A stretch of DNA of 64,000 bases from positions 186,001 to 250,000 of the forward strand of contig NZ_JPKG01000027.1 of NCBI RefSeq assembly GCF_000735605.1, given 5' to 3'. The stretch is from Allobosea sp. LC85 (GTDB lineage Bacteria > Pseudomonadota > Alphaproteobacteria > Rhizobiales > Beijerinckiaceae). Positions 6,322 through 19,824 of this stretch are shown here, in pieces. The number at the start of each line of letters is the position of its first letter. Position 1 is the stretch's first letter. The position numbers were made by a program, and so were the translations under genes. The notes under the pieces are model-generated. The model was not told where the DNA came from and did no database searches. It worked only from the letters and a program-made list of their open reading frames with translations.

Positions 6322-6347
6322 GGAACTGGCAGATGCTTCGCGGCGTT
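6322..6347 (+). promoter_or_regulatory. EcfG-type promoter upstream of the ABC transporter
   Basis: GGAAC at 6322-6326, a 17-base spacer and CGTT at 6344-6347, about 100 bases ahead of the ATG at 6450. This matches the general stress sigma factor consensus of alphaproteobacteria. Confidence 0.6.
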
Positions 6348-6449
6348 CTAGCGCCGTGGAGCGTGGCGATCTCCAGCCTCCGGGTTATGATTGCGGCACC
6401 TCGCGATGATGCTCCGGTCAAAGACATCTCGGGCGGGAGGTGCAAGGTC

Positions 6450-8261
6450 ATGGCTGAGAGGCCGCAACCATCCAGGCGTTTGCGCATGCGGCAGTTTTTC
6501 CGCATCGCGCTGCGGTTCTGGAGCGGCAAGACCCGGTTGCGAGCCTGGGCGCTGACGATAGCCGTCCTGGTCTTCATCGCCACACAGACGGCCACCGCCG
6601 TCGGCATCAATAGCTGGAACCGGTTCTTCTTCGACGCGCTGGAAAAGCGCGATATCGGTGCTGTCTGGTCGGTGATCGCCTGGCTGCCGGCGCTGGTCGT
6701 CGCATTCAGCCTGTCGCTCTCGGCCCTTGTGGTCAGCCGCATGCTGCTTCAGGCGCGGTGGCGGGAGGACTTGACCAGCCGTCTTGCTGGCTGGTGGATC
6801 GCCGATCAGCGCTATTACAGGCTGGGTTTCCTCACCAAGAGGCAAACCGCCCCCGAATATCGCATCGCAGACGATGTCCGGCTGGCGATCGAGCCGCTCG
6901 TTGAATTCGCGATCGGATTGATCAGCGCTGCGGTGACGGCCGCGACCTTTGCCACCATCCTCTGGCAGGTCGCAGGCTCCGCCCGCTTCATGCTCGGTGG
7001 CACGCAGGTCGTGATCCCGAGCTACATGGCGATCGCTGCGATCGCCTATGCGGTGGTTGCGTCGCTCGCTGCCTATCTCACCGGGCGACCGCTGGTTGCT
7101 CGCATTGCGGCCAAGAACGAGGCCGAGGCTCTGTTCCGGGCCGAAATGACGCGATTGCGTGAGAATGCCGAGAGTATCGCCTTGATCAAGGGCGACGCCG
7201 ACGAGCGCGCATCGGTCGGCGAGAATTATGGCCGCGTCCTTGCCGCCTGGCTCCGCGTCATTCGCCAGCAGGGCGTGATCGCATTGGTGCTCAACACCAA
7301 TGGAGCCTTGTTCCCGGTCGTTCCGCTGTTGCTGATCGCGCCGAAATATCTCTCTGGTGAGGTCACGCTCGGCGCCGTGATGCAGGTCGTCGCGGCGTTC
7401 AGCGCCGTTCAGGCCGCGCTGATCTGGTTCGTCGACAATTTCGTCCGGCTGGCCGAGTGGTTCGCCTCCGTCACCCGCGTCGACGAGCTGGTCGAAGAAC
7501 TCGAAGCGCTCGATGTCGGCACGATCATGGAGGGTGAGACCCAGATCTCGTTCGGCGAGAGTGACGACGGCGCGATCCATATCAAGGAGCTCTCGCTCGC
7601 CCACAGCAACGGGCGCGTCGTCATTGCAGACGCGACGGTCGTGATCGAACTCGGCGAAAAGGTGCTGATCGTGGGCGAGAGCGGCTCCGGCAAGAGCACG
7701 CTGATCCGGTCGTTGGCCGGCCTCTGGCCCTGGGGCTCGGGCTCGATCCAGGTCCCTCGCGGCAAGCGCATCGCCTTCGTGCCACAGAAGCCCTACTTGC
7801 CCCTCGGCGATTTCAGGGCCGTGCTGCTCTATCCCGATTCCGAGATCCCCGTCAGCGAAGAGACCATCGTTGCCGCGCTTCGGCGCTGTGGCCTGGCCTA
7901 TATGGCGAAGCGCCTGAACGAGGAGGACAATTGGGATCGCGTCCTGTCCGGCGGCGAACGCCAGCGCGTCGCCTTCGCTCGATTGCTGATCCAGAATCCC
8001 GATATCATCATCATGGACGAAGCGACTTCGGCACTCGACGAGGACAGCCAGAATTCGCTCCTTGGATTGTTCGAGGGTGAGCTTGCGCACGCCACCGTCA
8101 TCAGCGTCGGCCACCGCCCCGGTCTCGAGGATTTCCATGACCGCAAGATCACGCTGGAAAAGCGCCTGGCAGGCGCCCATCTGAGCTCGCGCCGGATCGG
8201 CAAGTCGCTCTGGCGACTGTTCCGTAGCCGCCAGCCCGCCAACGAGGATGAGGTGGCCTGA
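6450..8261 (+). CDS. ABC transporter, fused membrane and ATPase domains (YddA/SbmA-like membrane fold)
   Basis: The 603-residue half-transporter has an N-terminal ABC_membrane_2-type domain (about five to six membrane helices, residues 25-340, with the family-like sequence SWNRFFFDALEKRD). The C-terminal ATPase carries Walker A GESGSGKST, signature LSGGERQR, Walker B IIIMDEATSALDE and the switch His in SVGHRP. It should act as a homodimer in the inner membrane; the cargo is unknown. The ATG at 6450 follows GGGAGG at good spacing, so the longer frame from 6333 is not used. An EcfG-type promoter precedes it, predicting stress induction. Confidence 0.88.
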   Translation: MAERPQPSRRLRMRQFFRIALRFWSGKTRLRAWALTIAVLVFIATQTATAVGINSWNRFFFDALEKRDIGAVWSVIAWLPALVVAFSLSLSALVVSRMLLQARWREDLTSRLAGWWIADQRYYRLGFLTKRQTAPEYRIADDVRLAIEPLVEFAIGLISAAVTAATFATILWQVAGSARFMLGGTQVVIPSYMAIAAIAYAVVASLAAYLTGRPLVARIAAKNEAEALFRAEMTRLRENAESIALIKGDADERASVGENYGRVLAAWLRVIRQQGVIALVLNTNGALFPVVPLLLIAPKYLSGEVTLGAVMQVVAAFSAVQAALIWFVDNFVRLAEWFASVTRVDELVEELEALDVGTIMEGETQISFGESDDGAIHIKELSLAHSNGRVVIADATVVIELGEKVLIVGESGSGKSTLIRSLAGLWPWGSGSIQVPRGKRIAFVPQKPYLPLGDFRAVLLYPDSEIPVSEETIVAALRRCGLAYMAKRLNEEDNWDRVLSGGERQRVAFARLLIQNPDIIIMDEATSALDEDSQNSLLGLFEGELAHATVISVGHRPGLEDFHDRKITLEKRLAGAHLSSRRIGKSLWRLFRSRQPANEDEVA

Positions 8262-8302
8262 GCGCTGCTCCCGGTTTTGTGATCGCGGCCAGGCGGGCAG
8301 CG

Positions 8303-8327
8303 GGAACCGAACCGGCGGCGTCGCGTT
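8303..8327 (+). promoter_or_regulatory. EcfG-type promoter upstream of the 90-residue protein
   Basis: GGAAC at 8303-8307, a 16-base spacer and CGTT at 8324-8327, a perfect match. It lies 54 bases upstream of the ATG at 8381. Confidence 0.75.
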
Positions 8328-8380
8328 CTCTTCGACGTAAACTGGTCAATGGTGGCCAGTCGTGGCGTAGGGAGAGACAG

Positions 8381-8653
8381 ATGTTGAATGACAGCCTTGC
8401 CCCCATCAAACGCGCCTTCGCTTTCTTTGGAATCATGGGCGCGGTGGTGGCCACGCTGACCTTCGGCTCGGCTCTCCAGAGCGCAACCGATCAGAGTTCG
8501 ACCTCCGTCGCTGAGGCCAAGAGTCGAAATCACATCCCGACAGATAGCCAACTGGCATCGGTGGACCCCGCCCAGAGGGTCGCCGATCGGACCAAGCGCG
8601 CGATCGCGACCTCCCAGGAGGCTCGCGTCATCGGGCCCAGCGTTATTCGCTGA
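8381..8653 (+). CDS. Small predicted membrane or secreted protein, unknown function
   Basis: The 90-residue protein is not recognised. The ATG at 8381 has AGGGAGAG just upstream. Residues 12-32 form one hydrophobic segment (FFGIMGAVVATLTFG), either a signal peptide or an anchor. The rest is polar, with many Ser, Thr, Arg and Gln. A perfect EcfG promoter precedes it, so it is predicted to belong to the general stress regulon; that is also the best evidence that it is a real gene. It stands alone between the ABC transporter and the transglutaminase gene. Confidence 0.65.
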   Translation: MLNDSLAPIKRAFAFFGIMGAVVATLTFGSALQSATDQSSTSVAEAKSRNHIPTDSQLASVDPAQRVADRTKRAIATSQEARVIGPSVIR

Positions 8654-8823
8654 GCTGGGACATTCTGCGGGCAGGACATTCTGCGCGAAAGCGGAACCGG
8701 GCGCTCGGTCGCGATGCGATGGGGCGCCCTCGCGCTTGTCACGCGTGAAGCCGCCTTCGGGCGGCTTGTTTTGTCGGTGGCCGCGCCGGCTACCATGGCC
8801 CGTCGCTTGGCCTGGAGGGTCCT

Positions 8824-9705
8824 GTGCACCTGCGTATTCGTCACGCGACCACTTATCGCTACGCCCAGCCCGTCGAGTTCGGACCGCATCGCCTGATGCT
8901 GAGGCCGCGGGACAGTTTCGACCTGCGCGTCGTGGAAACCGCGCTCAGCATCACGCCGGCGGCGCAGTTGCGCTGGATGCATGATGCCTATGGCAATTCG
9001 GTTGCCATCGCGAGTTTCGAGGGGCAGGCCGATAGCCTCGACATCGTCAGCGAACTGGTGGTCGAGCGCTTCGGGCCGGCTCTTCCAAGCCCGGTGCTCG
9101 CGCCGGATGCGGCGATCACCGGGGTCGTCTACACTCCCTCCGAACGCGCGGCCCTCCAGCCCTATCTGGCTCTGGCAACGGCTGACCCCGATGGCGCGCT
9201 CGACCAATGGCTCCTCGCCTTTCGCGCGCGGATTGGCGCCGGAACCGGGCACCTGTTGCGGGATCTCGCCCATGCCATCAATGACACATTGACCTACGTC
9301 ATTCGCTATGACGAGGGCACGCAGCACCCGCTCGACACGCTTCAGCTGGGGAGCGGCTCCTGCCGCGACTATGCGTGGCTGTTTATCGAGCTGGCGCGTC
9401 GCCTGGGCTTCGCCGCCCGTTTCGTGACCGGCTATATTCACGAACGCAGCCTGGAAAACGGAGGGCTCGTCTCACCGGCCGGCCTGACGCATGCGTGGGC
9501 TGATGTCTTCATCCCCTTCGACGGCTGGGTCGAGTTCGATCCGACCAATGATCTGGTGGCGGATCGCCAACTGCTGCGCATCGCTGTTGCTCGTGTGCCT
9601 GAGGACGCATCGCCAGTCTCTGGCAGCTATACCGGGCTCGCCGGCGCTTTCCTCGGCTTGAACGTTGGAGTCAGCATCGAACCCGTCGAGACGACCCAGT
9701 GCTGA
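8824..9705 (+). CDS. Transglutaminase-like cysteine protease family protein
   Basis: The 293-residue protein starts at GTG 8824, preceded by GGAGGG. It has the bacterial transglutaminase N-domain (LRIRHATTYRYAQPVEFGPH, residues 2-21), then the core with the catalytic triad: Cys in GSGSCRDYAWLF (about 180), His in LTHAWADVF (about 222) and Asp in VEFDPTND (about 240). Such proteins are cytoplasmic, since no signal peptide is seen, and are thought to act as peptidases or cross-linking enzymes. The substrate is unknown. It converges on the kinase gene with a 6-base gap. Confidence 0.85.
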   Translation: MHLRIRHATTYRYAQPVEFGPHRLMLRPRDSFDLRVVETALSITPAAQLRWMHDAYGNSVAIASFEGQADSLDIVSELVVERFGPALPSPVLAPDAAITGVVYTPSERAALQPYLALATADPDGALDQWLLAFRARIGAGTGHLLRDLAHAINDTLTYVIRYDEGTQHPLDTLQLGSGSCRDYAWLFIELARRLGFAARFVTGYIHERSLENGGLVSPAGLTHAWADVFIPFDGWVEFDPTNDLVADRQLLRIAVARVPEDASPVSGSYTGLAGAFLGLNVGVSIEPVETTQC

Positions 9706-9711
9706 ACAGGC

Positions 9712-11358
9712 TCAGTCACGATGCACGATACGCCAGGAGCCCAATGAGCGCCCGCCCGGCGCGGAGACCTCGGTGGCCACGATCTGTGTCAGCAGACCAG
9801 CAAAGAGCCTGGGTGGCTCGGCATGGTCGATCTCGCGATCAGCCTCGATGCTGATTTCAATGATTTCCCGACCGATATCGGCAGCCGTGACGGTCACGGT
9901 GAGGCCCGGGCCGTGGCGCAAGGCGCGCCCCACCACGTCGACGATCAGGAAGCCGAGCGGAATGATCCGGTCGACAGAAAGTGACGACATCGTCTCGATT
10001 CGACTCATGACGCCCTGGTCGCGGCGGCGGATGAGGTTCGAGATCATCGTCATGACGTCGTCGAGGAACAGGTCGACGCGAACCGGCTGCATTTCTCCGT
10101 CGGCGAGTGTGAAGCGATAGGCTGCCGAGAGGACGTGGACGCGGCATTCGGCGTCGGCGAGCGCAAGTCTGGCTTCGCCGCGAGAATCGCGCTTGGTCAA
10201 CCCGATATAACTCTGGACGACCTGGAGGCTGTTCTTCACCCGATGATGCAGCTCGCGGACCAGGAAGCGATTGTCGTCGAGGGCGTTGGAGAGCTTGCGC
10301 TGTCGCATCTCCTCCTCCTCGACCATGGTGTTGAAGGCCTCCGCCACGCTGCGCATGTCGCTCGGCATGTCCGCCGCGACCGGGGCCCGGGCGCTCGACA
10401 GTTTCGCACGCGCCCTGGCTGCCGCTTCGAGGCCGCGCAGCCAGCGCACGCAATGCCGGTCGATTGCGCGCAGGTAGACGAAGCAGAGCAGGGCGAGTGT
10501 GAGGAGCGGGGTCAGCAGCAGAATGAGGAACTGCGTCTGGGCTGCACGCTCCGCTGCGTTGTCGAAACTCGCGATCACATAGAGGTCCGGCTCGGCAACC
10601 ATGCGGGCGGCATAGGCGCGGCTGGGGCCAGCCCTGCTTGCCGCCTCCCAGCGCGCCTTGACGTCGGGCACCACTTCCTGAGCCGGTAGCCAGGACTCGT
10701 CGCCTTCATCCGCTCCTCGGCTGGTGACAATTCCGCTGCCACGATGGATCAGTGCGACCGCAAGGTTCTTATCGCTCTCGCCGAGATCGAAGACCTTGTT
10801 GAGAAGGTCGGGCTCCGCGAGCAGCAGAGCTTCCTGGGTGAGCTGTTCGGGGTCATTGCTGTGAGCATAGACCGCGAGATAGCGTTGCTGATCGAGGATC
10901 ACATCGTCATAGCGCACGATCGCCAGTTCTGTGCCCGCCCAGATGCGGACCGGTGGTTTGGCGCTCAGTCGCTCTGCGGTTGCGGCAAGCTTGGCGGCGG
11001 TAACGGACGGATCGAGCGAGACCGAGCAGATTTCGCCGTTGCGCATCTTGAGGTGAAGCGCGCTGTAGCCGGTCACCCGCTTCAGAACTTCGTGGGCGGC
11101 CGCATCGCAATCTCCGGTGCTCGACGTGCCCGCTGCTGCGCCCACCGTCAGCAGCGAGCGCAAGGCGCCGCGATACCAGACACGCGCGCGTACCGCATAG
11201 TCGTCCGCCGTGCGGATCTGGAAACTCTGAATCGAAGCAATGACCGTCCGATAGGTCGTGATCGCGGCGATCGCCGACAGGCAGGCGATTGGCAACGCAA
11301 TTGCGACCAGCAGGGCGAGAAGCCTGCCGCGGACGGTCTTGAACCGCGCCAGTCGCAT
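9712..11358 (-). CDS. HisKA_2-type sensor protein with degenerate ATPase domain, general stress response
   Basis: The 548-residue inner-membrane sensor has membrane segments at about 12-33 and 276-296, a periplasmic sensing region between them and a HAMP-like linker. Its HisKA_2 phosphoacceptor helix is ELHHRVKNSLQVVQ (His at 371/372). The ATP-binding part is degraded: where functional kinases have an Asn-rich N box such as NELVTNAxKH, this one has VDVVGRALRHG, and no DxGxG box follows. It may therefore be a PhyR phosphatase or need a partner kinase. Its ATG shares a base with the ecfG stop (TAATG), so it is cotranscribed with nepR-ecfG. Confidence 0.85.
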   Translation of the reverse strand: MRLARFKTVRGRLLALLVAIALPIACLSAIAAITTYRTVIASIQSFQIRTADDYAVRARVWYRGALRSLLTVGAAAGTSSTGDCDAAAHEVLKRVTGYSALHLKMRNGEICSVSLDPSVTAAKLAATAERLSAKPPVRIWAGTELAIVRYDDVILDQQRYLAVYAHSNDPEQLTQEALLLAEPDLLNKVFDLGESDKNLAVALIHRGSGIVTSRGADEGDESWLPAQEVVPDVKARWEAASRAGPSRAYAARMVAEPDLYVIASFDNAAERAAQTQFLILLLTPLLTLALLCFVYLRAIDRHCVRWLRGLEAAARARAKLSSARAPVAADMPSDMRSVAEAFNTMVEEEEMRQRKLSNALDDNRFLVRELHHRVKNSLQVVQSYIGLTKRDSRGEARLALADAECRVHVLSAAYRFTLADGEMQPVRVDLFLDDVMTMISNLIRRRDQGVMSRIETMSSLSVDRIIPLGFLIVDVVGRALRHGPGLTVTVTAADIGREIIEISIEADREIDHAEPPRLFAGLLTQIVATEVSAPGGRSLGSWRIVHRD

Positions 11359-11918
11359 TAGGGTCGGATGGGTTCGGAGCTGGTCCTGTGAACCGCCGCT
11401 GCACTCTGACGATCGGGCCCGAGGTCATCGAGACCTTTGATCGACAGCAGCTCCGCAAGCTTGGTACGCGCCCTGTTGACGCGGCTCTTGATGGTGCCGA
11501 TCGCGACGCCGCAGATCTCAGCGGCCTCCTCATAGGAGAGGCCCGTTGCGCCGACCATGATCAGCACTTCGCGCTGCTCCTCGGGCAGCTTGGCCAGGGC
11601 CTTGCGAAAATCGGCAAGATCGAGATGGCTTTCCTGATTGCCATGCACGGCCATGCGCTCGGCATAGGTGCCTTCACTGTCCTGCACCTCGCGGCCGCGC
11701 TTGCGGTAGAGCGAGTAGTAGGTGTTGCGCAGGATGGTGAAGAGCCAAGCGCGCAGGCTGGTGCCCGGTTCGAACTTGTCCGAATTGCCCCAGGCTTTGA
11801 GCAGAGTATCCTGGACCAGATCGTCAGCGAGCTGCATCGAACCCGAAAGCGACGCCGCGAAGGCACGCAGGTTCGGGATTTCCTTGATCAGACCGTCCTT
11901 GAATTCAGGGGCGCTCAT
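11358..11918 (-). CDS. ecfG: General stress response ECF sigma factor EcfG
   Basis: The 186-residue ECF sigma factor has region 2 (DDLVQDTLLKAW, then LRAWLFTILRNTYYS) and region 4 (LPEEQREVLIMVGATGLSYEEAAEICG, followed by the recognition helix GTIKSRVNRAR). In alphaproteobacteria this family (EcfG/SigT/RpoE2) directs transcription of stress genes at GGAAC-N16/17-CGTT promoters and is held inactive by NepR. Here it lies between nepR and the membrane sensor gene, opposite phyR, which is the standard arrangement. Its start overlaps the nepR end by 14 bases, implying translational coupling. It should autoregulate from the promoter at 12257-12281. Confidence 0.96.
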   Translation of the reverse strand: MSAPEFKDGLIKEIPNLRAFAASLSGSMQLADDLVQDTLLKAWGNSDKFEPGTSLRAWLFTILRNTYYSLYRKRGREVQDSEGTYAERMAVHGNQESHLDLADFRKALAKLPEEQREVLIMVGATGLSYEEAAEICGVAIGTIKSRVNRARTKLAELLSIKGLDDLGPDRQSAAAVHRTSSEPIRP

Positions 11919-12135
11919 CGCTTGCTTCCTCAGCGGATGAACGGCTTTCCTTGGCTTCCAGCTGCGCCAGCAGAACCAGGAATTTGTCGGGAATGGGTGC
12001 GTTGATCAGATCGTCGTAATGCGCTTTCAGCGAACGGCCAATCGATTCCTGAACCCTGGGATCCAGAATGGCTTCGAAATCCGGCTCGTCGCCTCCGTTT
12101 GACTCTGGCATCTCGATCTTCATACCACTCATCAT
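11905..12135 (-). CDS. nepR: Anti-sigma factor NepR
   Basis: The 76-residue protein carries the complete NepR core (IGRSLKAHYDDLINAPIPDK, residues 32-51, then FLVLLAQLEA). NepR binds EcfG in unstressed cells, and phosphorylated PhyR takes it away through its sigma-like domain. ATG 12135 and the in-frame ATGs at 12132 and 12123 are all possible starts. It is the first gene of the nepR-ecfG-sensor operon, with an EcfG-type promoter about 120 bases upstream. Confidence 0.95.
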   Translation of the reverse strand: MMSGMKIEMPESNGGDEPDFEAILDPRVQESIGRSLKAHYDDLINAPIPDKFLVLLAQLEAKESRSSAEEASDERP

Positions 12136-12256
12136 ACCCTCGCGCCGACGCCGCTCCGCTCTTCCAGGGGGCGGCGGATTGCCCTGTTCAACCGACTTTC
12201 CAATCCCGGCCGATCAAGATCAGCCGGGAGCATCATTGACACGTATGCGGCCAGAT

Positions 12257-12281
12257 AACGGTCGAGTTTCAGAAAAGTTCC
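12257..12281 (-). promoter_or_regulatory. EcfG-type promoter of nepR-ecfG-sensor operon
   Basis: Read on the minus strand: GGAAC at 12281-12277, a 16-base spacer and CGTT at 12260-12257. This is a perfect consensus match in the nepR/phyR divergent region, as expected for the autoregulated ecfG operon. No equally good motif faces phyR. Confidence 0.85.
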
Positions 12282-12360
12282 AGGCAAATCGTAAAATAAA
12301 TTACTTGTCAGAAACACGTTGCGGGTGCTCACTTTCGGTAGGTTGAAGAAGGACCCGTCA

Positions 12361-13173
12361 ATGTCGGTTGCGAAGGAAATTGCCCCGCATTTGCCCTATC
12401 TGCGCCGCTTCGCGCGAGCTTTGAACGGCACTCAGGCGAGCGGCGATGCCTATGTCGTTGAGATGCTCGAAGCGCTGGTCGTCGATCCGAACTCCTTTCC
12501 GCGCGACGTCGATACCCGCACCGGACTGTACAGGACTTTCCTGAAGCTCTGGTCTTCGGTCGGCATCAACAACCAGCCTTCTTCGGGCGGCCAGTCTTCT
12601 TCGGGCGCCGTCGAGCGCTCATCGGCCGAGCGCAATCTCAGCGCGCTGACCCCACGTCCCAGGCAGGCTTTCCTGCTGCGCACGGTCGAGGGCTTTTCGC
12701 TCGACGAGGTCTCTGCGATCATGGAGGTCTCGGCGGCGGAGGTGGCAAATCTCGTCCAGGTCGCCGGGCAGGAAATCGCCGATCAGGTCGCGACAGATGT
12801 GCTGATCATCGAAGACGAGCCCATCATCGCGCTCGATATCGAAACGATGGTCGAGGAGCTCGGACATACGGTGACCGGCGTCGCCCGGACCCATCGCGAG
12901 GCGATCGCGTCGGTCGCGAAGAAGCGACCGGGCCTGGTGTTGGCCGATATCCAGCTTGCTGACGGCAGTTCCGGCCTTGAGGCCGTCAATGAGATCCTGA
13001 GCGCCATCGACGTCCCGGTGATCTTTATTACGGCCTATCCGGAACGGCTTCTGACCGGAGACCGGCCCGAGCCTGCCTTCCTGATCACCAAGCCGTTCCA
13101 GCCGGAGGCGGTGAAGGCGGCGATCAGCCAGGCGCTGTTCTTTGATCGGCGCGCGGGACGCAAGGCCGCCTGA
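12361..13173 (+). CDS. phyR: Response regulator PhyR with sigma-factor-like domain
   Basis: The 270-residue anti-anti-sigma factor has an ECF-sigma-like region at residues 1-140 (LPYLRRFARALNG, then LTPRPRQAFLLRTVEGFSL). The receiver domain follows from about 145, with acidic residues IIEDEP, phospho-Asp 196 in VLADIQL, a FAT GUY-class motif FITAYPE and Lys in LITKPFQ. When phosphorylated, the sigma-like part binds NepR and frees EcfG. The start at 12361 is supported by AGAAGGA upstream and by the family N-terminus. It is divergent from nepR. Confidence 0.96.
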   Translation: MSVAKEIAPHLPYLRRFARALNGTQASGDAYVVEMLEALVVDPNSFPRDVDTRTGLYRTFLKLWSSVGINNQPSSGGQSSSGAVERSSAERNLSALTPRPRQAFLLRTVEGFSLDEVSAIMEVSAAEVANLVQVAGQEIADQVATDVLIIEDEPIIALDIETMVEELGHTVTGVARTHREAIASVAKKRPGLVLADIQLADGSSGLEAVNEILSAIDVPVIFITAYPERLLTGDRPEPAFLITKPFQPEAVKAAISQALFFDRRAGRKAA

Positions 13174-13238
13174 CTTGGGTTCACTCGAACAGCGGGGTCC
13201 GCGGCGCCGTGGCGCCCCGGACCTCTTTCTCATGCGCC

Positions 13239-13313
13239 TTACCACCCCAGAAAATAGGCGATCAGAAGTGCCGGAAACGGCAACGCGACGATCATCGGCG
13301 CAATCCATTTCAT
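13239..13313 (-). CDS. Putative 24-residue membrane peptide
   Basis: An ATG at 13313 with AGGAGA about 8 bases upstream opens a 24-codon frame ending in TAA. The product is one hydrophobic helix with a Lys-Trp start and a Gly-Trp end (MKWIAPMI to YFLGW). It lies 43 bases downstream of the DUF1328-like gene on the same strand, so the two may be cotranscribed. Small size makes this tentative; a good ribosome-binding site and hydrophobic composition are the only support. Confidence 0.4.
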   Translation of the reverse strand: MKWIAPMIVALPFPALLIAYFLGW

Positions 13314-13318
13314 GACAT

Positions 13319-13352
13319 CTCTCCTGGCGCCTGGTCTCTCCTGGCGCCTGGT
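13319..13352. repeat. Tandem duplication, two perfect 17-bp units
   Basis: Units at 13319-13335 and 13336-13352 are identical. On the minus strand each contains a CAGGAGAG motif, so the Shine-Dalgarno of the 24-codon gene is duplicated. Confidence 0.9.
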
Positions 13353-13356
13353 CGGC

Positions 13357-13527
13357 TCACGACCGCCGCCCCTTGCTCATTGCAATCAGGCCGGTGACCG
13401 CCGCAGCCACGAGCGCAGCGAAGAAGACGATTCTTGCTGCCACCATCGCCAGCCCTGGCACGCCACCAAAGGCCGGCATCCCTGCGACAAGCGCAGCGAT
13501 CAGAAATGTCACGGTCCACCCGGACAT
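13357..13527 (-). CDS. DUF1328-like small membrane protein
   Basis: A 56-codon gene starting at ATG 13527, with GAGGA 7 bases upstream. It begins MSGWTVTFLIAALVAG and continues through a Gly/Pro turn into a second hydrophobic helix (IVFFAALVAAAV), ending SKGRRS. This is the layout of the DUF1328/YtjA family of two-helix inner-membrane proteins (usual start LGWAVTFLIIALIA), many of which are stress-induced; function is unknown. A near-match to the EcfG promoter (GGAAT-N17-CGTT, 13588-13563) lies upstream. It overlaps no other plausible gene. Confidence 0.65.
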   Translation of the reverse strand: MSGWTVTFLIAALVAGMPAFGGVPGLAMVAARIVFFAALVAAAVTGLIAMSKGRRS

Positions 13528-13620
13528 CGAGAATCCTCAGAATTCAGCATAGATTTTGAAGCAACGGTTCTGCCGTTGCAAAAATTCCAGCTTGACTGCC
13601 CGGGCATAAGAATGTCGGGA

Positions 13621-13646
13621 GGAACAAGTTTTACGCGCTCTACGTT
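13621..13646 (+). promoter_or_regulatory. EcfG-type promoter upstream of the extensin-like gene
   Basis: GGAAC at 13621-13625, a 17-base spacer and CGTT at 13643-13646. The next convincing start on this strand is 13866, giving a leader of about 210 bases. Confidence 0.6.
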
Positions 13647-13865
13647 AGCTAATGGTACGTTATGAAACGTGAAGTGCGCTGTGAGTGACAAAGTTGTTCC
13701 GGATTGGTGCCTTTTGCTTGCATCGGCGGTATCTGGTTATTTGGCCGAAACGTAGAAAGCGAAATGGCCACTCAAGGTCTGGCCCTTGTTTCTCGTCGCT
13801 GCGCCACTTTTGCCCGTCCCTCTGAAATCGTGATGAGGGGCCCGTACAAGGAGGGAGATGCCCGG

Positions 13866-14711
13866 ATGACGGCCAAGCGCATGAGGCAGTTCGCGGCATT
13901 ATGCGGCATTGGCGCGGTGGTCGCGATTGTCTCCTTTTTCACGCTCTCCCAGGCCGAAGCGGCCTCCGGGGCAAAGGCTGAGACGCGCCCTGCGCCCGCC
14001 GGCTTGCCGCCACTGCGGCCGAAGGATCTGGCGCTACCGTCGCCTGCAGCAGTGCCGGTTCCCTCGGAACAGTCACCTGCGAAGCCTCGCGAAGCGCAGC
14101 CATCCGTCACTTCCAGTGCGCCCGGTGAGAGCGCCTGCATGCGGGCGTTGGCAGCCGTTGCGGGCAATCGCATTCGCCAGCCCGATGCGATGCAATACCG
14201 GGCAACGGAATCAACCTGCCAGGTGCAGGAGCCGATCGTGGTGGAGGCGCTTGCCTATCGCGCGGCTGACGGGCCGGGAACAGTTGTCTTCGCGCCGCCG
14301 GTCACGATCAGCTGTGCCATGGCGACGCGGGTTTCCCAGTGGCTTGATGACACGATCCAGCCCCTCGCCCGAGGTTATTTTGGGCAGGATCTCTCGCGCC
14401 TTCAGGTCGGGGGCGGCCATGAGTGTCGTCGGCGCAACCGCTCGACGGCTGGCCCGCTCAGCGAGCATGCGACGGGACAGGCACTCGACATCTTCGCCTT
14501 CGTCATGGGCGAGGAGCGTTCGGGCGGTGTTCGTGTCATGGTCGAGAAGCCGGCTGGCTTGGCCCAGGACCGCTTCCTGAAGGCGGTGAGGCAATCGGCT
14601 TGCGGAGCTTTCGCTACGAGCCTAGGCCCCGGCTCCGACGCCGCCCATGCCAATCATCTTCATGTCGATATCCAGCCGCGCCGCTCCGCCTCGACGCGCT
14701 TCTGCCAGTGA
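13866..14711 (+). CDS. Extensin-like C-terminal domain protein (peptidoglycan-related, secreted)
   Basis: The 281-residue protein has an N-terminal hydrophobic signal or anchor (GIGAVVAIVSFFTLSQAEA, about residues 14-32), a Pro/Ala-rich linker to about 75, then an extensin-like domain. This domain has a fold related to D-Ala-D-Ala carboxypeptidases: SACxxRAL-like start, GPLSEHATGQALDIFAF with the metal-site His and Asp, and ANHLHVD near the end. Paired cysteines fit a periplasmic location. Start 13866 has GGAGGGA upstream; the frame extends to 13704 but without a good start. The EcfG promoter predicts stress induction. Confidence 0.85.
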   Translation: MTAKRMRQFAALCGIGAVVAIVSFFTLSQAEAASGAKAETRPAPAGLPPLRPKDLALPSPAAVPVPSEQSPAKPREAQPSVTSSAPGESACMRALAAVAGNRIRQPDAMQYRATESTCQVQEPIVVEALAYRAADGPGTVVFAPPVTISCAMATRVSQWLDDTIQPLARGYFGQDLSRLQVGGGHECRRRNRSTAGPLSEHATGQALDIFAFVMGEERSGGVRVMVEKPAGLAQDRFLKAVRQSACGAFATSLGPGSDAAHANHLHVDIQPRRSASTRFCQ

Positions 14712-14728
14712 CCGGGGGGCGCCGGCGC

Positions 14729-14983
14729 TCAAGCGACGCTGTCGGAGACTTCGTCGAGTTCGACGCGGTTGAACCGCCAAGGGTCGCCCGGGCGATACAG
14801 AGCGGCCGGTGCCCGGCCGGGTTCGGCCTGCGCGCGCCGTAGCGCGAGGATATTGAGCGCCGTGCTCTGGTCGAGCCCCGACGCAATCAGATCCTCAAGT
14901 TCCCAAAAGGGAGGGAGCCGATCCGGCTCGCTGCCCGTCGGCATCAGCGTCGCTTGCAGAGGTGGGCCAATACGAGTGAACAT
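14729..14983 (-). CDS. Conserved-looking small protein, unknown function
   Basis: An 84-residue cytoplasmic protein, not recognised. It reads LPPFWELEDLIASGLDQSTA then LNILALRRAQAEPG, then GDPWRFNRVELDEVS. The frame is open to 15019, but a perfect EcfG promoter has its -10 element at 15013-15016, so transcription starts downstream of 15013 and the ATG at 14983 must be used. The promoter and the ordinary amino-acid composition argue for a real gene. It converges on the extensin-like gene with a 17-base gap. Confidence 0.6.
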   Translation of the reverse strand: MFTRIGPPLQATLMPTGSEPDRLPPFWELEDLIASGLDQSTALNILALRRAQAEPGRAPAALYRPGDPWRFNRVELDEVSDSVA

Positions 14984-15012
14984 CTCACGTTTCCGTCCAG
15001 GGGCGGAATTGG

Positions 15013-15037
15013 AACGCAACGCTCCTGCTTAGGTTCC
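15013..15037 (-). promoter_or_regulatory. EcfG-type promoter for the 84-residue protein
   Basis: Minus strand GGAAC at 15037-15033, a 16-base spacer and CGTT at 15016-15013, a perfect match 30 bases upstream of ATG 14983. On the plus strand, overlapping GGAAC boxes at 15011 and 15048 have weaker -10 partners (GGTT at 15032, CATT at 15069) facing the DUF992 gene. Confidence 0.7.
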
Positions 15038-15103
15038 AGACTGATCGGGAACTGTGGAGCTATTGCGGCATTTTTTGGTAACCATGTTGTCAGGAGATTC
15101 GTC

Positions 15104-15613
15104 ATGATCCATCGGTCTGCCAAAATTGCCGCCGCAACCGCGCTCTGCGTTGCCGTGTTGAGCTCTCTTTCAACGGCTGCCAGTGCGCAGAGCGGAGCTC
15201 CGGCAGGTCGGCTCAACTGCCATGTCGGCGGGGGGCTCAGCCTCATCGTGACGTCGCAGAAGCCAATGGAGTGCCGCTTTACGCCGCGCCGCGGGCCCAT
15301 CCAGCGCTATGCCGGCATTGTGCGCAATTTCGGGCTCGATGTCGGCACGTTCAAGCGCAGCACCATGGCCTGGCGCGTCTTTGGACCTTATGCGCGGGCC
15401 CCCTTGGGAGCTTTGGCAGGCACTTATGTTGGTGCGAGCGCCGGCGCTTCGGCGGGAGCGGGAGGATCGGCGAACATGCTCATTGGTGGCGTCGATAAGG
15501 ATGTCATGCTGCAACCCCTCTCGCTGCAAAACCTGCGTGGCTTCAATGTTGCTGTTGGCGTTACGGGTCTCGAGCTTTCGCTCGTCCCGTCTTCATCGCG
15601 CGGGCGTCGCTGA
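15104..15613 (+). CDS. DUF992 family secreted protein
   Basis: The 169-residue periplasmic protein has a signal peptide (residues 1-28, cleavage after ASA) and starts at ATG 15104 with CAGGAGA upstream. It matches the DUF992 pattern by eye: GRLNCHVGGGLSLIV, MECRFTPRRG, YAGIVRNFGLDVG, LAGTYVGASAGAS, then GGSANMLIGG, LQPLSLQ and GFNVAVGVTGLEL. The glycine-rich repeated pattern suggests a beta-rich fold. Function is unknown; the family is common in Hyphomicrobiales. Weak EcfG-like motifs precede it. Confidence 0.85.
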   Translation: MIHRSAKIAAATALCVAVLSSLSTAASAQSGAPAGRLNCHVGGGLSLIVTSQKPMECRFTPRRGPIQRYAGIVRNFGLDVGTFKRSTMAWRVFGPYARAPLGALAGTYVGASAGASAGAGGSANMLIGGVDKDVMLQPLSLQNLRGFNVAVGVTGLELSLVPSSSRGRR

Positions 15614-15729
15614 CGCCGCCCTGTTTCCTCGCGACCGAGAGGCTTTTTGAGAGGGTTACGCTTCGCTAACCTTCTTGCCCCATGTTTAGTTCAATTTGAA
15701 GCTTTCCGTCGCGGTGCGTCCCGCGTGCC

Positions 15730-15755
15730 GGAACAAGGCCATGCTTCGCCGCGTT
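15730..15755 (+). promoter_or_regulatory. EcfG-type promoter of the response regulator gene
   Basis: GGAAC at 15730-15734, a 17-base spacer and CGTT at 15752-15755, 54 bases ahead of ATG 15809. The spacer resembles that at 6322 (both end ATGCTTCGC plus two or three bases). Confidence 0.7.
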
Positions 15756-15808
15756 CCTCCGCCAGAGCGCGATAGATCAATGGCAGATCGAGAAAGGACG
15801 CGGGATTG

Positions 15809-16168
15809 ATGAGCCAGATCCGCATCCTGATCGTCGAGGACGACCCTTTCATCGCGATGGATATCGAGTATGCCGTGATGGATAAGCTCGGCGAGGATGC
15901 CGAGCTTATCATCGTCGGTTCCGTCGAGGAGGCTCGGCGCGCCATCGGTTCGCCGGTTTCCTGCGCGTTGCTGGACATCGACGTTGTTGGCGGCAAGACC
16001 TTCGACGTTGCCAGAAGCCTGCTGAGCCGGGGTACGCCGATCGCGTTTGTGTCCGGCGCGACACCAGGCGATGTGCCCGACGCGTTGCGCCAGGTGCGCT
16101 TTCTGCGCAAGCCATTCTCGACGCGCGAGATTGCCAGCTTCGTATCACGCGCATTGAAGGCGCACTGA
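15809..16168 (+). CDS. Single-domain response regulator
   Basis: The 119-residue protein consists only of a CheY-like receiver: acidic pair in LIVEDDPF, phospho-acceptor Asp 56 in CALLDIDV, Ser in AFVSGA and Lys in FLRKPF. With no output domain it probably works by protein contact or as a phosphate sink. It converges with an HWE/HisKA_2 kinase gene about 60 bases away, a likely partner. An EcfG-type promoter predicts that it is made under stress, which would link that kinase to the PhyR system. Such single-domain regulators modulate the stress response in other alphaproteobacteria. Confidence 0.9.
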   Translation: MSQIRILIVEDDPFIAMDIEYAVMDKLGEDAELIIVGSVEEARRAIGSPVSCALLDIDVVGGKTFDVARSLLSRGTPIAFVSGATPGDVPDALRQVRFLRKPFSTREIASFVSRALKAH

Positions 16169-16205
16169 CAGCCCCCTGGGGTTCTGCCCAGGGCAGTTCG
16201 CGTGG

Positions 16206-16237
16206 TCAGCTCAGTCCCTCGTTCAGCTCAGTCCCTC
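16206..16237. repeat. 15-bp direct repeat with 17-bp period over the kinase stop codon
   Basis: TCAGCTCAGTCCCTC occurs at 16206-16220 and 16223-16237. The second copy contains the stop codon of the kinase gene, so the 3' end has been duplicated in tandem. Confidence 0.85.
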
Positions 16238-17598
16238 TTGGGGAATATCAGGGTGACCCGTGTCCCAGGGCGCTCTGTGCCCGGGGTGCGGGCGGCGATA
16301 TCCATGGTCGCCCGCATGCTGCGCAACAGGCTTGCAATGACCGTCTGGCCGAGCCCCTTGGCTTCGGCCCGGGGCGGCATTCCAACGCCGTCATCTTCGA
16401 TCGTCAGGATGAGGGTCGGCGCTTCCGCATCATCACCTCTGCCGAAGCGAATGACGACCCGCCCGGTCATGTTCCCCGGAAATGCATGCTTGATCGCGTT
16501 GGTGACGAGCTCGTTGACGATCACCACGAAGGAGACTGCGTCGCGCCCGGGCAGGCGGATCGAATCCATTTCGAGATCGATCGTGATCGGTCGACCTTCG
16601 GCCGCCTTGCCGATCTCGTCCAGCAGGTCCTCCATATAGGGGCGGGCGTCGATCTCGTCGGTCTCGATGTCGAGACGCAGCCGGCGCTGCCCGGCGGCGA
16701 TCGCCTGGATGCGCGATTGCGCCTCGGCGAGGGCCGTCTTGACCGCTGGCTCCCGCGTCTGCCGGCTCTGTACATTGAGCAGAGCGGAAACCATGGCGAG
16801 GTTGTTCCCGACGCGGTGGTTGACGTCGCGCAGCAGCGCCTCGATGCGCAATCGCTCGCCTTCGAGCTGCTGTGTGCGCTCGCCGACGATCCGTTCGAGT
16901 TCCGCATTGGTCATCGCGAGCGCTGCGGAGCGGCGCTGGCGGGCTCGCACTTGCAGCCACGCCGCGAATGCGAGACCGGCCAGTGCCACCACGATCCCGA
17001 TGCTGGCCCAGAGCCGCCGACGCTCCTCGCTGCGGCTTAAAGCGACGAGCTTGATGTTCTCGGCGAGCTGAATCTGCTGGATCGTCCCGCGCAGCTCTTC
17101 CATCGCCGCAATGCCATGGCCATCGCGGATAAGCGCCAGCGCTTCAGCCTGCCGGCCTTCGCGCGCAAGCGTCACGGTTGCGTCGAGTTCCTCGAACTTG
17201 CGGGCAATCTGGGCGCGGACCAGCGCCAACCGCTCGCTCTGCTGCTTGTTGTCGGAGACGAGACGCTCCAGCACCTCGAGATCGGAAGGAGCGGCGGCGC
17301 GCCCTGTGGTAAACGGGGCGAGGTAGGTTGCGGTACCCGTCAGCAGATAACCGCGCTGTCCGGTTTCAGCATCCCGGACATGCCCGAGCAGGCGTTCTGC
17401 CCGTTCGCGGATCTCGACCGAGTGAGCGACCTCGCGCGAGGTGTCGATCGCTTGCGAATTGATCCAGGCCGCCAGGATGATCGCAACGCCGACGACCGTG
17501 ATGGCGGCAATGGTCGTGGTCGCGGAGCGCAGCCGCCGGGCCAGCGTCGGCAATGGCGACAAAAGGATCGGGCCTTGCGGCCTTGCTTGGGCGGACAT
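16228..17598 (-). CDS. Sensor histidine kinase, CHASE3 plus HisKA_2 type
   Basis: The 456-residue membrane kinase has a first membrane segment at about 29-47, a CHASE3-like extracytoplasmic domain (ERAERLLGHVRDAETGQRGY, then YLLTGTATYLAPF), a second membrane segment near 200, a short coiled coil and the kinase core. The phosphoacceptor motif is DVNHRVGNNLAMV. The ATP-binding domain is intact, with VNELVTNAIKHAF and EDDGVGM boxes, in contrast to the sensor at 9712-11358. It could phosphorylate the nearby single-domain regulator, PhyR, or both. I prefer ATG 17598 to the GTG six bases upstream; neither has a clear ribosome-binding site. Confidence 0.9.
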   Translation of the reverse strand: MSAQARPQGPILLSPLPTLARRLRSATTTIAAITVVGVAIILAAWINSQAIDTSREVAHSVEIRERAERLLGHVRDAETGQRGYLLTGTATYLAPFTTGRAAAPSDLEVLERLVSDNKQQSERLALVRAQIARKFEELDATVTLAREGRQAEALALIRDGHGIAAMEELRGTIQQIQLAENIKLVALSRSEERRRLWASIGIVVALAGLAFAAWLQVRARQRRSAALAMTNAELERIVGERTQQLEGERLRIEALLRDVNHRVGNNLAMVSALLNVQSRQTREPAVKTALAEAQSRIQAIAAGQRRLRLDIETDEIDARPYMEDLLDEIGKAAEGRPITIDLEMDSIRLPGRDAVSFVVIVNELVTNAIKHAFPGNMTGRVVIRFGRGDDAEAPTLILTIEDDGVGMPPRAEAKGLGQTVIASLLRSMRATMDIAARTPGTERPGTRVTLIFPKRD

Positions 17599-17716
17599 GG
17601 GCACCGTGATAGCCGACCGAAGTCACAATCCCTATGTAAAAAGACAGGATTCGTCCATGCTCGGCGGCGCACAGCGCCTATGAGGCCGCCGCGAGCGGAC
17701 TCGGGTAGCGAGGGTC

Positions 17717-18142
17717 TCAGCTCTCTCCGTCGGGTCCGCCGTCCCCCTTGAAGAGCTGACGTCCGAGGATCGCGCCCAGGATCACCACGCCGCCGACGAG
17801 AGCGGCGCTCCACTTCTTGCGAGAGGTCAGCAGCGAGGCGGCGATCGGGGCTGCGGCCAGAGCAGTTGCAGCGAGCGGTGGGGCCGGCCGGCGACGGCTG
17901 CTGATGAAGGCCGCGATCGCGAAGATCAGCAGACCGGCAATGACAAGCCCGCCTGCGATGATCAGGCTCGCCTGGACCTTGCCGTAAAGCTGCTCCAGCA
18001 CCGCATGCAGGGCGCCGAGTGCAAAGCCGGCGGCGCAGATCATCAGCAGGGCCGCTAGCCCGTACAGGCCGTAGACGACGATATTACGCTTCACCCTGCC
18101 GCGGATTTCCGACGCCAGAAGCGCTCCCAGCCCCCCAATCAT
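17717..18142 (-). CDS. Phage-holin-like (holin superfamily III) membrane protein
   Basis: The 141-residue protein begins MIGGLGALLASEIRGRVKR. It has three hydrophobic segments (about 22-45, 58-80 and 115-130) with a basic loop SSRRRPAPP between. This is the usual form of holin_3_6-type proteins that are encoded next to DUF883 proteins in alphaproteobacteria; the name reflects fold similarity and no prophage is present. The start at 18142 lies 4 bases after the stop of the DUF883 gene, so the two form an operon under the EcfG promoter at 18571. Confidence 0.75.
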   Translation of the reverse strand: MIGGLGALLASEIRGRVKRNIVVYGLYGLAALLMICAAGFALGALHAVLEQLYGKVQASLIIAGGLVIAGLLIFAIAAFISSRRRPAPPLAATALAAAPIAASLLTSRKKWSAALVGGVVILGAILGRQLFKGDGGPDGES

Positions 18143-18146
18143 GATT

Positions 18147-18509
18147 TCAGCGGGCCGAAAGGAAGCCGACGAACAGTCCGACAGCCGCGGCGACGCCAAG
18201 CGCGCGCAACGGGCGCTCCTGAATTTCCGCGACGATCAGGCGCTGCAGCTCTGTCGCCTGCTCCTTGGCGACGTCGACCATCTTGTCGGTATCGACGCCG
18301 ACCGCCCTGAGCTTGTCGCTGACCGTGGCAGCGAGATCCTCGGCACTCCGCGACAGGCTCTCCTGGGTATTCTCGGCTTCGGAGCGGATGCGGCGGCCCG
18401 CCGTGGCTGCGCGCTTGGCGATGCCGTCGGCACCGGCTGCGATCTCATCCCCGGCGCTCTTGACGGAAGTCTCCGCCTGACGCTTCGCGGAAGTGGGCGT
18501 CTTGGCCAT
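18147..18509 (-). CDS. DUF883/ElaB-like membrane-anchored protein
   Basis: The 120-residue protein has a long polar alpha-helical body (residues 5-95, rich in Ala, Glu, Lys and Arg, coiled-coil-like) and ends with the family tail ERPLRALGVAAAVGLFVGFL, a single C-terminal membrane helix. E. coli relatives (ElaB, YqjD) are stationary-phase proteins that bind ribosomes at the inner membrane. A perfect EcfG promoter lies about 60 bases upstream, which agrees with a stress role. Confidence 0.82.
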   Translation of the reverse strand: MAKTPTSAKRQAETSVKSAGDEIAAGADGIAKRAATAGRRIRSEAENTQESLSRSAEDLAATVSDKLRAVGVDTDKMVDVAKEQATELQRLIVAEIQERPLRALGVAAAVGLFVGFLSAR

Positions 18510-18570
18510 GTCTGTCGTTCCCTGTGTCTGGAAAACCGGGTCAGTCGAGAAATCGACGCGTCATGGTGGC

Positions 18571-18595
18571 AACGCGCCATTATCGCTCCGGTTCC
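18571..18595 (-). promoter_or_regulatory. EcfG-type promoter of the DUF883-holin operon
   Basis: Minus strand GGAAC at 18595-18591, a 16-base spacer and CGTT at 18574-18571, 61 bases upstream of ATG 18509. Perfect match. Confidence 0.8.
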
Positions 18596-18623
18596 GCGAG
18601 CTGCTCGGTGACCAGCTCGGCCG

Positions 18624-19757
18624 TTAAGCCGGTTTGGTCTCGTCGCCGGCTTCGTCAAGCTGCGCCTTGCGATACCGCGCGAACTCCTCTTGCGCCACCA
18701 TGGCAACGAGCAGGATCGGAGTCGAGAGCACCGCGCCGACCGGCCCCCAGAGCCAGAGCCAGAAGATGAAGCCGATGAAGACCAGGAAGGGCGACACCGT
18801 CAGCTTGCCGCCAACGAAGATCGGCGTGATCGCATTCCCTTCGAGAAGATGGAGCACATAATAGGCGGCCGCCGGCCAGACTGCGATGAGGAGCGATGGC
18901 GCATCGAGCAATGCGCCGGCAAACAGCATCACCGTGACGATGATCGGACCAATGAAGGCGAGATAGTTGAGGAGGAAGGCAAGTGCGCCCCAGAACACCG
19001 GGAAGGGAAGCCCCGCGAGCCAGGCGATCGCCATCGAGGCCAGGCCCATGCCGAGGTTGATCAGCGTGACAAGGCCGAAATAGCGGGCCACCCGCACTTC
19101 GATCTCCTCGAAGAAGGATCCGGCGGATCGGCGTGCGCCATGGCCGAGGCAGAGCCTGAGAACGCGCGCCTTGAAATGTCGGCGTGTCGCCAGCCAGAAA
19201 TACACCGTCGCCACGAAGATCAGCAGCCCGCCGGCAGCAGTGGAGGAACCGAGCGCGATGTCGAAGAGCGGGTTGCCTTGTGAGACGTTCAGTTCAACGC
19301 CGCTCTTGCCGGAGAGACTGGCTGCCGTCTTCTTGAATTCGTCCATGAAGACAAGAACGCCGGCGAGCTTTGAGCGCAGCCCGGCCAGCATGGCCGGGAA
19401 CTGATCGATCCAGGTTGCGATCGGCACCGCCAGCACGGTCAGAGAACCCAGCAGCAGCAGCACGCCGACAAGGACCACGAGGAAGGCCGCCAAGAGCTGC
19501 GGCACGCCATGGCGCACCAGCCAGTCGACGACCGGGCCGAGCACAAGGCCGAAGATCACTCCCGCAGTGACCGGCAGGGCGATGACCTTGGTGATGGAGA
19601 GTGCCGCGGTGGCCAGGATCACGAAAATGCCGACGATGGCATAACGCAGGATCAGGTCATGCTCATGAGGCGTGACGCTGCGGCCATTGTCTTCCTCGAC
19701 GACCTCAGGCTCCGCCATGTAGCGCGGAAAAGGCCTCCAGGCCGAGTTGCTGAGCAT
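18624..19757 (-). CDS. AI-2E/PerM family transporter
   Basis: The 377-residue inner-membrane protein has about eight hydrophobic segments. They are arranged in the usual way: a block near residues 40-100, a central soluble stretch (FDIALGSSTAAGG), then a long membrane half ending in the motif FVGGKLTVSPFLVFIGFIFW followed by LWGPVGAVLSTPILLV. PerM-family proteins export small molecules or ions (AI-2 for E. coli TqsA, Na+/H+ for others); the substrate is not readable. ATG 19757 has GGGGGAAG at good spacing, so I prefer it to 19787. An EcfG-type motif lies at 19799-19824. Confidence 0.82.
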   Translation of the reverse strand: MLSNSAWRPFPRYMAEPEVVEEDNGRSVTPHEHDLILRYAIVGIFVILATAALSITKVIALPVTAGVIFGLVLGPVVDWLVRHGVPQLLAAFLVVLVGVLLLLGSLTVLAVPIATWIDQFPAMLAGLRSKLAGVLVFMDEFKKTAASLSGKSGVELNVSQGNPLFDIALGSSTAAGGLLIFVATVYFWLATRRHFKARVLRLCLGHGARRSAGSFFEEIEVRVARYFGLVTLINLGMGLASMAIAWLAGLPFPVFWGALAFLLNYLAFIGPIIVTVMLFAGALLDAPSLLIAVWPAAAYYVLHLLEGNAITPIFVGGKLTVSPFLVFIGFIFWLWLWGPVGAVLSTPILLVAMVAQEEFARYRKAQLDEAGDETKPA

Positions 19758-19798
19758 GTAGCGCTTCCCCCCGCGCCCCCAAGGCACGACGGAACGAT

Positions 19799-19824
19799 AA
19801 CGTCACTGCGGCCGCTCTGGTTCC
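19799..19824 (-). promoter_or_regulatory. EcfG-type promoter of the AI-2E transporter gene
   Basis: Minus strand GGAAC at 19824-19820, a 17-base spacer and CGTT at 19802-19799. It is 42 bases upstream of ATG 19757; it would exclude the alternative start at 19787. Confidence 0.6.

Follow-up and report, generated by a model that had tools for sequence, protein, structure and literature searches.

The PhyT-like protein encoded next to ecfG in Allobosea sp. LC85 most probably acts as a phosphotransferase of the PhyT/PhyK type, with H372 relaying phosphate from an SdrG-like regulator to PhyR. This reading brings together the anatomy of the protein, the loss of its ATP motifs, conservation, gene linkage, co-occurrence, promoter-like sites, and a fold that is a prediction; from relatives we infer the phosphotransfer, its direction, the binding of PhyR, and the kinase that would feed the relay. 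The window, that is, the whole stretch of DNA that was analyzed, comprises 64,000 nucleotides of the 6.56-Mb genome, and its relevant features are given in Table 1.

Table 1 Features of the phyR locus and of the PhyT-like protein in the window
Feature	Position	Strand	Remarks
PhyT-like gene	9712..11358	-	548 aa, ATG start; ORF limits exact
PhyT-like protein, domain order			TM1, Cache-like periplasmic domain (~aa 35-275, predicted), TM2, linker, DHp, degenerate ATP-binding domain
HisKA_2 DHp of the PhyT-like protein	aa 369-441		Phosphoacceptor H372
Degenerate ATP-binding domain of the PhyT-like protein	~aa 442-548
ecfG, general stress sigma factor	11358..11918	-	Stop overlaps ATG of the PhyT-like gene (TAATG, 11356-11360)
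nepR, anti-sigma factor	11905..12135	-	PF18557, 51.5 bits; overlaps ecfG
EcfG-type promoter site GGAAC-N17-GTT	12257..12281	-	Facing nepR, ecfG, and the PhyT-like gene
phyR, sigma-like and receiver domains	12319..13173	+	NF006623, 371 bits; D210 (numbering of the listed ORF) is the receiver Asp
EcfG-type promoter site GGAAC-N18-GTT	15730..15755	+	Upstream of the single-domain regulator
SdrG-like single-domain response regulator	15806..16168	+	Would donate phosphate to the PhyT-like protein (proposed)
CHASE3-HisKA_2 histidine kinase	16228..17604	-	Intact ATP boxes; proposed entry kinase

Organization of the phyR locus

The gene phyR on the forward strand is followed by nepR, ecfG, and the PhyT-like gene on the reverse strand, and EcfG, NepR, and PhyR adjoin the PhyT-like gene in all 63 loci from the genus. 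The initial annotation took the PhyT-like gene to be cotranscribed with ecfG. Cotranscription of nepR, ecfG, and the PhyT-like gene is supported by the TAATG overlap, the overlap of nepR with ecfG, and the EcfG-type site in front of them.

Sites of this type were defined as GGAAC-N16-18-GTT, following the general-stress promoter consensus given in the relevant passage of PMC7083833. Within 300 nt of a gene, they were found upstream of the single-domain regulator in 57/57 loci, of nepR in 61/63, and of ecfG in 2/63, and were lacking upstream of the kinase (0/45), phyR (0/61), and the PhyT-like gene (0/63); the background in these loci was 8%, with the real sites included, and the counts are not independent because the loci are related. 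The entire window holds 12 EcfG-type sites, whereas mononucleotide shuffles gave 3.7. Around the phyR locus, between 6.3 and 19.9 kb (6322-19824), there are ten, with two places being read on both strands; this enrichment suggests a neighborhood of general-stress genes.

Domain architecture and loss of the ATP boxes

Pfam recognized HisKA_2 (43.2 bits, aa 369-441) and HWE_HK (25.5 bits) in the PhyT-like protein. The HisKA_2 box ELHHRVKNS (aa 369-377) is intact, as had been read from the sequence earlier, and the N box VDVVGRALRHG (aa 473-483) carries R478 where Asn is expected. A DxGxG box is missing as well, so that both the N-box Asn and the G1 box of an active HisKA_2 kinase are absent, in agreement with the initial annotation. 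The search for a complete HATPase_c domain that it had proposed was run, and Pfam listed no HATPase family at E ≤ 10, a listing from which the HMMER filters remove most matches above ~0.1. A HATPase domain overlooked at normal cutoffs was ruled out as an explanation, none being listed up to E 10, although the fold itself is predicted to persist. Alignment with PhyK had also been suggested and was done with the profile NF051872, which aligned to aa 21-482 with 123.7 bits, far under its curated cutoff of 750 bits.

Several features expected of PhyT were found, namely the linkage to ecfG, nepR, and phyR, the HRxxN histidine, the degenerate ATP-binding domain, and an SdrG-type regulator in the genome. 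The membrane anchor and periplasmic sensor domain, which are also expected of PhyT, are predicted, with the TM helices assigned from the model and by eye.

The AlphaFold model reached a mean pLDDT of 82.4 for the whole protein and 87.5 for the DHp and ATP-like domains. The predicted ATP-like domain matched the catalytic domain of ThkA (Z 13.8, 120 residues, 2.5 Å) and CheA (Z 13.5, 115 residues, 2.2 Å), and the best match to the DHp and ATP-like part was EL346, a HisKA2-type kinase (Z 17.0, 166 residues, 3.9 Å). The protein is predicted to retain a GHKL/HATPase fold of the Bergerat type; a kinase ATP-binding fold shared in this way shows no function by itself. The structure prediction called for in the initial annotation therefore divides its claim of a degraded ATP-binding domain: the protein has lost the motifs, yet according to the prediction it still folds like the ATP-binding domain of a kinase (Z ~13.5). 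ChpT and Spo0B, which are soluble and have no sensor domain, were not among the matches listed in the fold searches (at most 50 each), which is no argument against kinship.

The predicted periplasmic part resembles ligand-binding domains of the chemoreceptors PacA (Z 14.9, 213 residues, 3.6 Å) and PctA (Z 14.3), those of the PacA type being presumably double-Cache domains. Two long helices flank the periplasmic domain in the model.

Conservation of the PhyT-like protein in the genus and beyond

Orthologues were compared from 63 of the 67 genomes of the genus, the other four having no PhyT. H372, R373, and N376 of the HRxxN box are unchanged in 63/63. Position 478, which corresponds to the N-box Asn of the intact kinase, is Arg in 59/63 and Ala in 4/63, and aa 507-508 read DR in 59/63 and DG in the remaining four. 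The DxGxG box is absent from its place in 63/63; the string turns up by chance elsewhere in a single row (G058). Seven residues of the degenerate domain (R464, P467, G469, D507, G521, L522, and Q525) are invariant in 63/63. The defect in the ATP boxes is not unique to Allobosea sp. LC85, since the 63 orthologues show the same pattern, and a frameshift or local decay was ruled out as its cause on the same ground. In one genome (G029, L076), the orthologue is split across two overlapping frames, possibly through a frameshift or sequencing error. Its row is gapped or out of frame before ~aa 206 and after ~aa 533, so that conservation in these parts is supported by one row fewer; all boxes that were counted fall between them.

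The median omega of the PhyT-like protein was 0.067 in the DHp, 0.40 in the ATP-like domain, and 0.58 in the periplasmic part (646 pairs), and that of the intact kinase was 0.068 in the DHp and 0.30 in the ATP domain (526 pairs). The values were obtained with our own Nei-Gojobori script from pairs with a synonymous difference of 0.05-0.5. The degenerate ATP-like domain is constrained and is not decaying freely.

In a scan of 144 relatives, 80 were kept and 20 viewed; close reading was given to those in which EcfG and PhyR are encoded nearby, since many of the others are unrelated kinases. Twelve titled records from outside the genus with a PhyR match above 200 bits were compared, and their N boxes were judged by eye. 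The N-box Asn is missing at the phyR locus in five (a Hyphomicrobiales MAG, Chthonobacter, a Kiloniellaceae bacterium, a Methylopila MAG, and Hansschlegelia) and kept in seven (Paracoccus, a Hyphomonadaceae bacterium, Martelella, two Devosia, Sinorhizobium, and Mesorhizobium). The degeneration thus recurs at phyR loci and is not universal, with the reservation that orthology of the seven Asn-keeping HisKA_2/HWE proteins to the PhyT-like protein is not assured, some of them being HWE- or CHASE3-type kinases. A Pfam HATPase family was found in 3/3 of the scanned proteins that keep the Asn and in 0/4 of the scanned others. Regulators of the PhyT type are described as conserved among alphaproteobacteria in a passage of PMC5898713.

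The SdrG-like regulator and the intact kinase

The initial annotation of the PhyT-like ORF made no mention of the SdrG-like regulator, which starts 2.9-4.5 kb from the start of the PhyT-like gene in 57 loci and adjoins phyR in G091, which belongs to a different family within the order. Regulator counts refer to 57/63 loci; two of the others (G021 and G032) reach contig ends, and four have no regulator in the stretch. When a profile built from eight relatives was compared with the PDB, SdrG (5ieb, E 2.5e-14) came first, followed by 2lpm (E 1e-10), presumably Sma0114. A profile search within the Allobosea sp. LC85 genome (profile A2, E ≤ 1e-12) matched this regulator alone and revealed no second close SdrG-type regulator. 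A looser search with NF009971 yielded 18 matches, of which 12 came as loci; those read were PhyR, a DivK-like protein, the regulator in the window, and two OmpR-type regulators. As expected for a receiver, the residues D12, D13, D57, S83, and K102 are kept in 57/57 loci. The motif P-[FLI]-[AV]-F-V-S-G-[SA] is likewise present in 57/57 and takes the place of the FATGUY motif PFXFATG[G/Y], a consensus adopted from the title of a cited paper, from which it differs in A, T, and G/Y, as well as in the first F for some of the rows.

The kinase was recognized by Pfam with CHASE3, HisKA_2, HATPase_c (41.7 bits), and HATPase_c_2, and its boxes VNELVTNAIKHA and EDDGVG bear out the earlier view that this second HisKA_2 kinase has both ATP boxes. 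Its upper limit had been given as 17598, which is the next ATG; the listed ORF opens at the GTG at 17604. The kinase lies in the fetched stretch in 46/63 loci, and the DxGxG box is present in 45/45 rows of at least 80% full length. In some genomes of the genus, the orthologue is situated away from the phyR locus, ~118 kb off in G042. In two Devosia records (L144 and L165), a related CHASE3-HisKA_2 kinase with 35-37% identity occurs at the phyR locus, CHASE3 being seen for L144. Besides these two proteins, a single HisKA_2/HWE protein was found in the Allobosea sp. LC85 genome, an HWE kinase on contig 22. Some genomes of the genus show as few as two HisKA_2 matches (G030), and others up to 16 (G065).

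Co-occurrence of the components in the genus

Matches to PhyT and PhyR coincide in all 67 genomes, both being present in 63 and neither in 4. The latter genomes (G026, G031, G034, and G046; 3.2-3.9 Mb) have neither PhyR nor PhyT and no HisKA_2 match at E 1e-4, so that they apparently lack the phosphorelay branch of the general stress response. Orthologues of the regulator (E < 1e-50) and of the kinase (E < 1e-60) occur in an identical set of 59/67 genomes, G091 being set aside in this comparison. Four divergent members of the genus (G041, G044, G054, and G061) possess PhyR and a PhyT with 38-41% identity, without a close orthologue of either the regulator or the kinase. Two of them hold unlinked SdrG-like regulators only, and no SdrG-like regulator was found at E 1e-12 in G054 and G061, with an assembly completeness of 93% and 85%. 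All four fall into a single clade of the PhyR tree, for which, as for the PhyR counts, 61/63 loci were used. The co-occurrence may therefore rest on few events, perhaps one, and is no independent proof of function.

Proposed phosphorelay and alternative explanations

The PhyT-like protein would be derived from a HisKA_2 kinase and would not phosphorylate itself from ATP. Its H372 would receive phosphate from a phosphorylated SdrG-type regulator, in all likelihood that encoded at 15806-16168, and would pass it to PhyR, which would then remove NepR from EcfG. In unstressed cells, the protein probably also tethers PhyR to the membrane, and its activity may be tuned by the periplasmic Cache-like domain. 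The likely source of phosphate is the kinase at 16228-17604, perhaps together with the HWE kinase on contig 22; this kinase assignment is the weakest step, because other genomes of the genus carry up to 16 HisKA_2 matches. With the intact kinase and the SdrG-like regulator near the PhyT-like gene and phyR, a candidate for each step of the relay is located within 8 kb.

The initial annotation had suggested that the protein may dephosphorylate PhyR or act in a heterodimer with an intact kinase, and noted that a phosphatase role had been proposed for phyR-locus proteins of sphingomonads. The protein is indeed no ordinary kinase, and a kinase unable to use ATP could still dephosphorylate. The proposal did exist, for PhyP, and has since been revised, the protein being renamed PhyT (PMC5898713, passages on PhyT). 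According to the same passages, dephosphorylation of PhyR~P by PhyT of S. melonis was not seen in vitro, with activity in vivo left open, while PhyT transferred phosphate from SdrG~P to PhyR in a His-dependent manner. The nearby SdrG-like gene with its EcfG-type site also suits a relay better, and a dedicated phosphatase, whose H372 or DHp helix would dephosphorylate PhyR~P and end the response, appears improbable.

It is quite unlikely that the protein is purely an anchor sequestering PhyR at the membrane without phosphotransfer. The retained and constrained ATP-like domain could serve as a binding surface, and PhyT of S. melonis binds unphosphorylated PhyR, whose membrane binding is PhyT-dependent (PMC5898713, passages on PhyT). 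The HRxxN box unchanged in 63/63 and the lowest omega in the DHp are seemingly more than docking needs, and the H341A exchange in Sphingomonas PhyT also abolished the recruitment of PhyR to the membrane (PMC5898713, same passages), which makes the anchoring and phosphotransfer roles hard to separate.

An activity confined to a heterodimer, in which the kinase would phosphorylate H372 in trans, fits the HisKA_2 helices of both proteins and the presence of the PhyT-like gene in 59/59 genomes with a kinase orthologue. It is made very unlikely by the four genomes in which the PhyT-like gene is present and the kinase orthologue missing, by the hhalign alignment of the two proteins, which covers 145 columns with 21% identity, and by the kinase lying inside the fetched stretch in only 46/63 loci, with an EcfG-type site upstream of it in 0/45. 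That the PhyT-like protein is a kinase after all, with ATP bound without the usual boxes, is hardly credible: the predicted ATP-binding kinase fold remains and D507 is invariant, but the N-box Asn and the DxGxG box at its place are each found in 0/63 orthologues, no HATPase profile matched, and even PhyK, with its conserved domain, did not act as a kinase in the experiments described in the relevant part of PMC5964349.

Comparison with known systems

Degenerate phosphotransferases at phyR loci are already known, and histidine phosphotransferases of the PhyT/PhyK type have been described in Sphingomonas (PMC5898713) and Caulobacter (PMC5964349). For Bosea, no description of clustered candidates for each relay step, nor of an EcfG site in front of the SdrG-like gene, was found among the matches listed from the open PMC literature; Bosea, PhyR, and EcfG came together there only in a duckweed microbiome study, in whose matching excerpt the PhyR passage belongs to the reference list. 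Tentatively, the 8-kb locus of Bosea might constitute a self-contained relay of a CHASE3 kinase, a regulator of the FVSG type fed back by EcfG, a PhyT whose ATP domain would have become a docking surface, and PhyR, with the kinase and the regulator gained or lost jointly with the main form of PhyT. If the reading of the Bosea locus is true, a single short locus provides a candidate for every relay step, and it would be a small system in which to study how a kinase changes to a phosphotransferase and why a dead ATP domain persists. In Sphingomonas, the relay kinases and SdrG are scattered and seven Paks overlap in sensing (PMC5898713, passages on the Paks), which makes the wiring of the relay hard to test.

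ChpT and Spo0B are dimeric phosphotransferases that are called degenerated kinases in a passage of PMC5898713. Caulobacter crescentus PhyK, whose profile spans most of the PhyT-like protein, works with the FATGUY regulator MrrA as a phosphotransferase between MrrA and PhyR; its ATP-binding domain is conserved though its ATP-binding residues are dispensable (PMC5964349, sections on PhyK), whereas the boxes are gone in the PhyT-like protein. Among the FATGUY regulators SdrG, MrrA, and Sma0114, the regulator in the window is closest in the PDB to SdrG, and it departs from their motif by its F-V-S-G core. A close counterpart by description is PhyT of S. melonis Fr1, a strain of a different order from Bosea. 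Like the PhyT-like protein, it is encoded at the phyR locus, has a predicted membrane anchor and a putative periplasmic domain, and keeps the HRxxN box next to a degenerated ATPase domain (PMC5898713, passages on PhyT). The same source describes sdrG and the pak genes of Fr1 as dispersed in the genome, whereas in Allobosea sp. LC85 the SdrG-like regulator and one kinase are encoded beside the locus.
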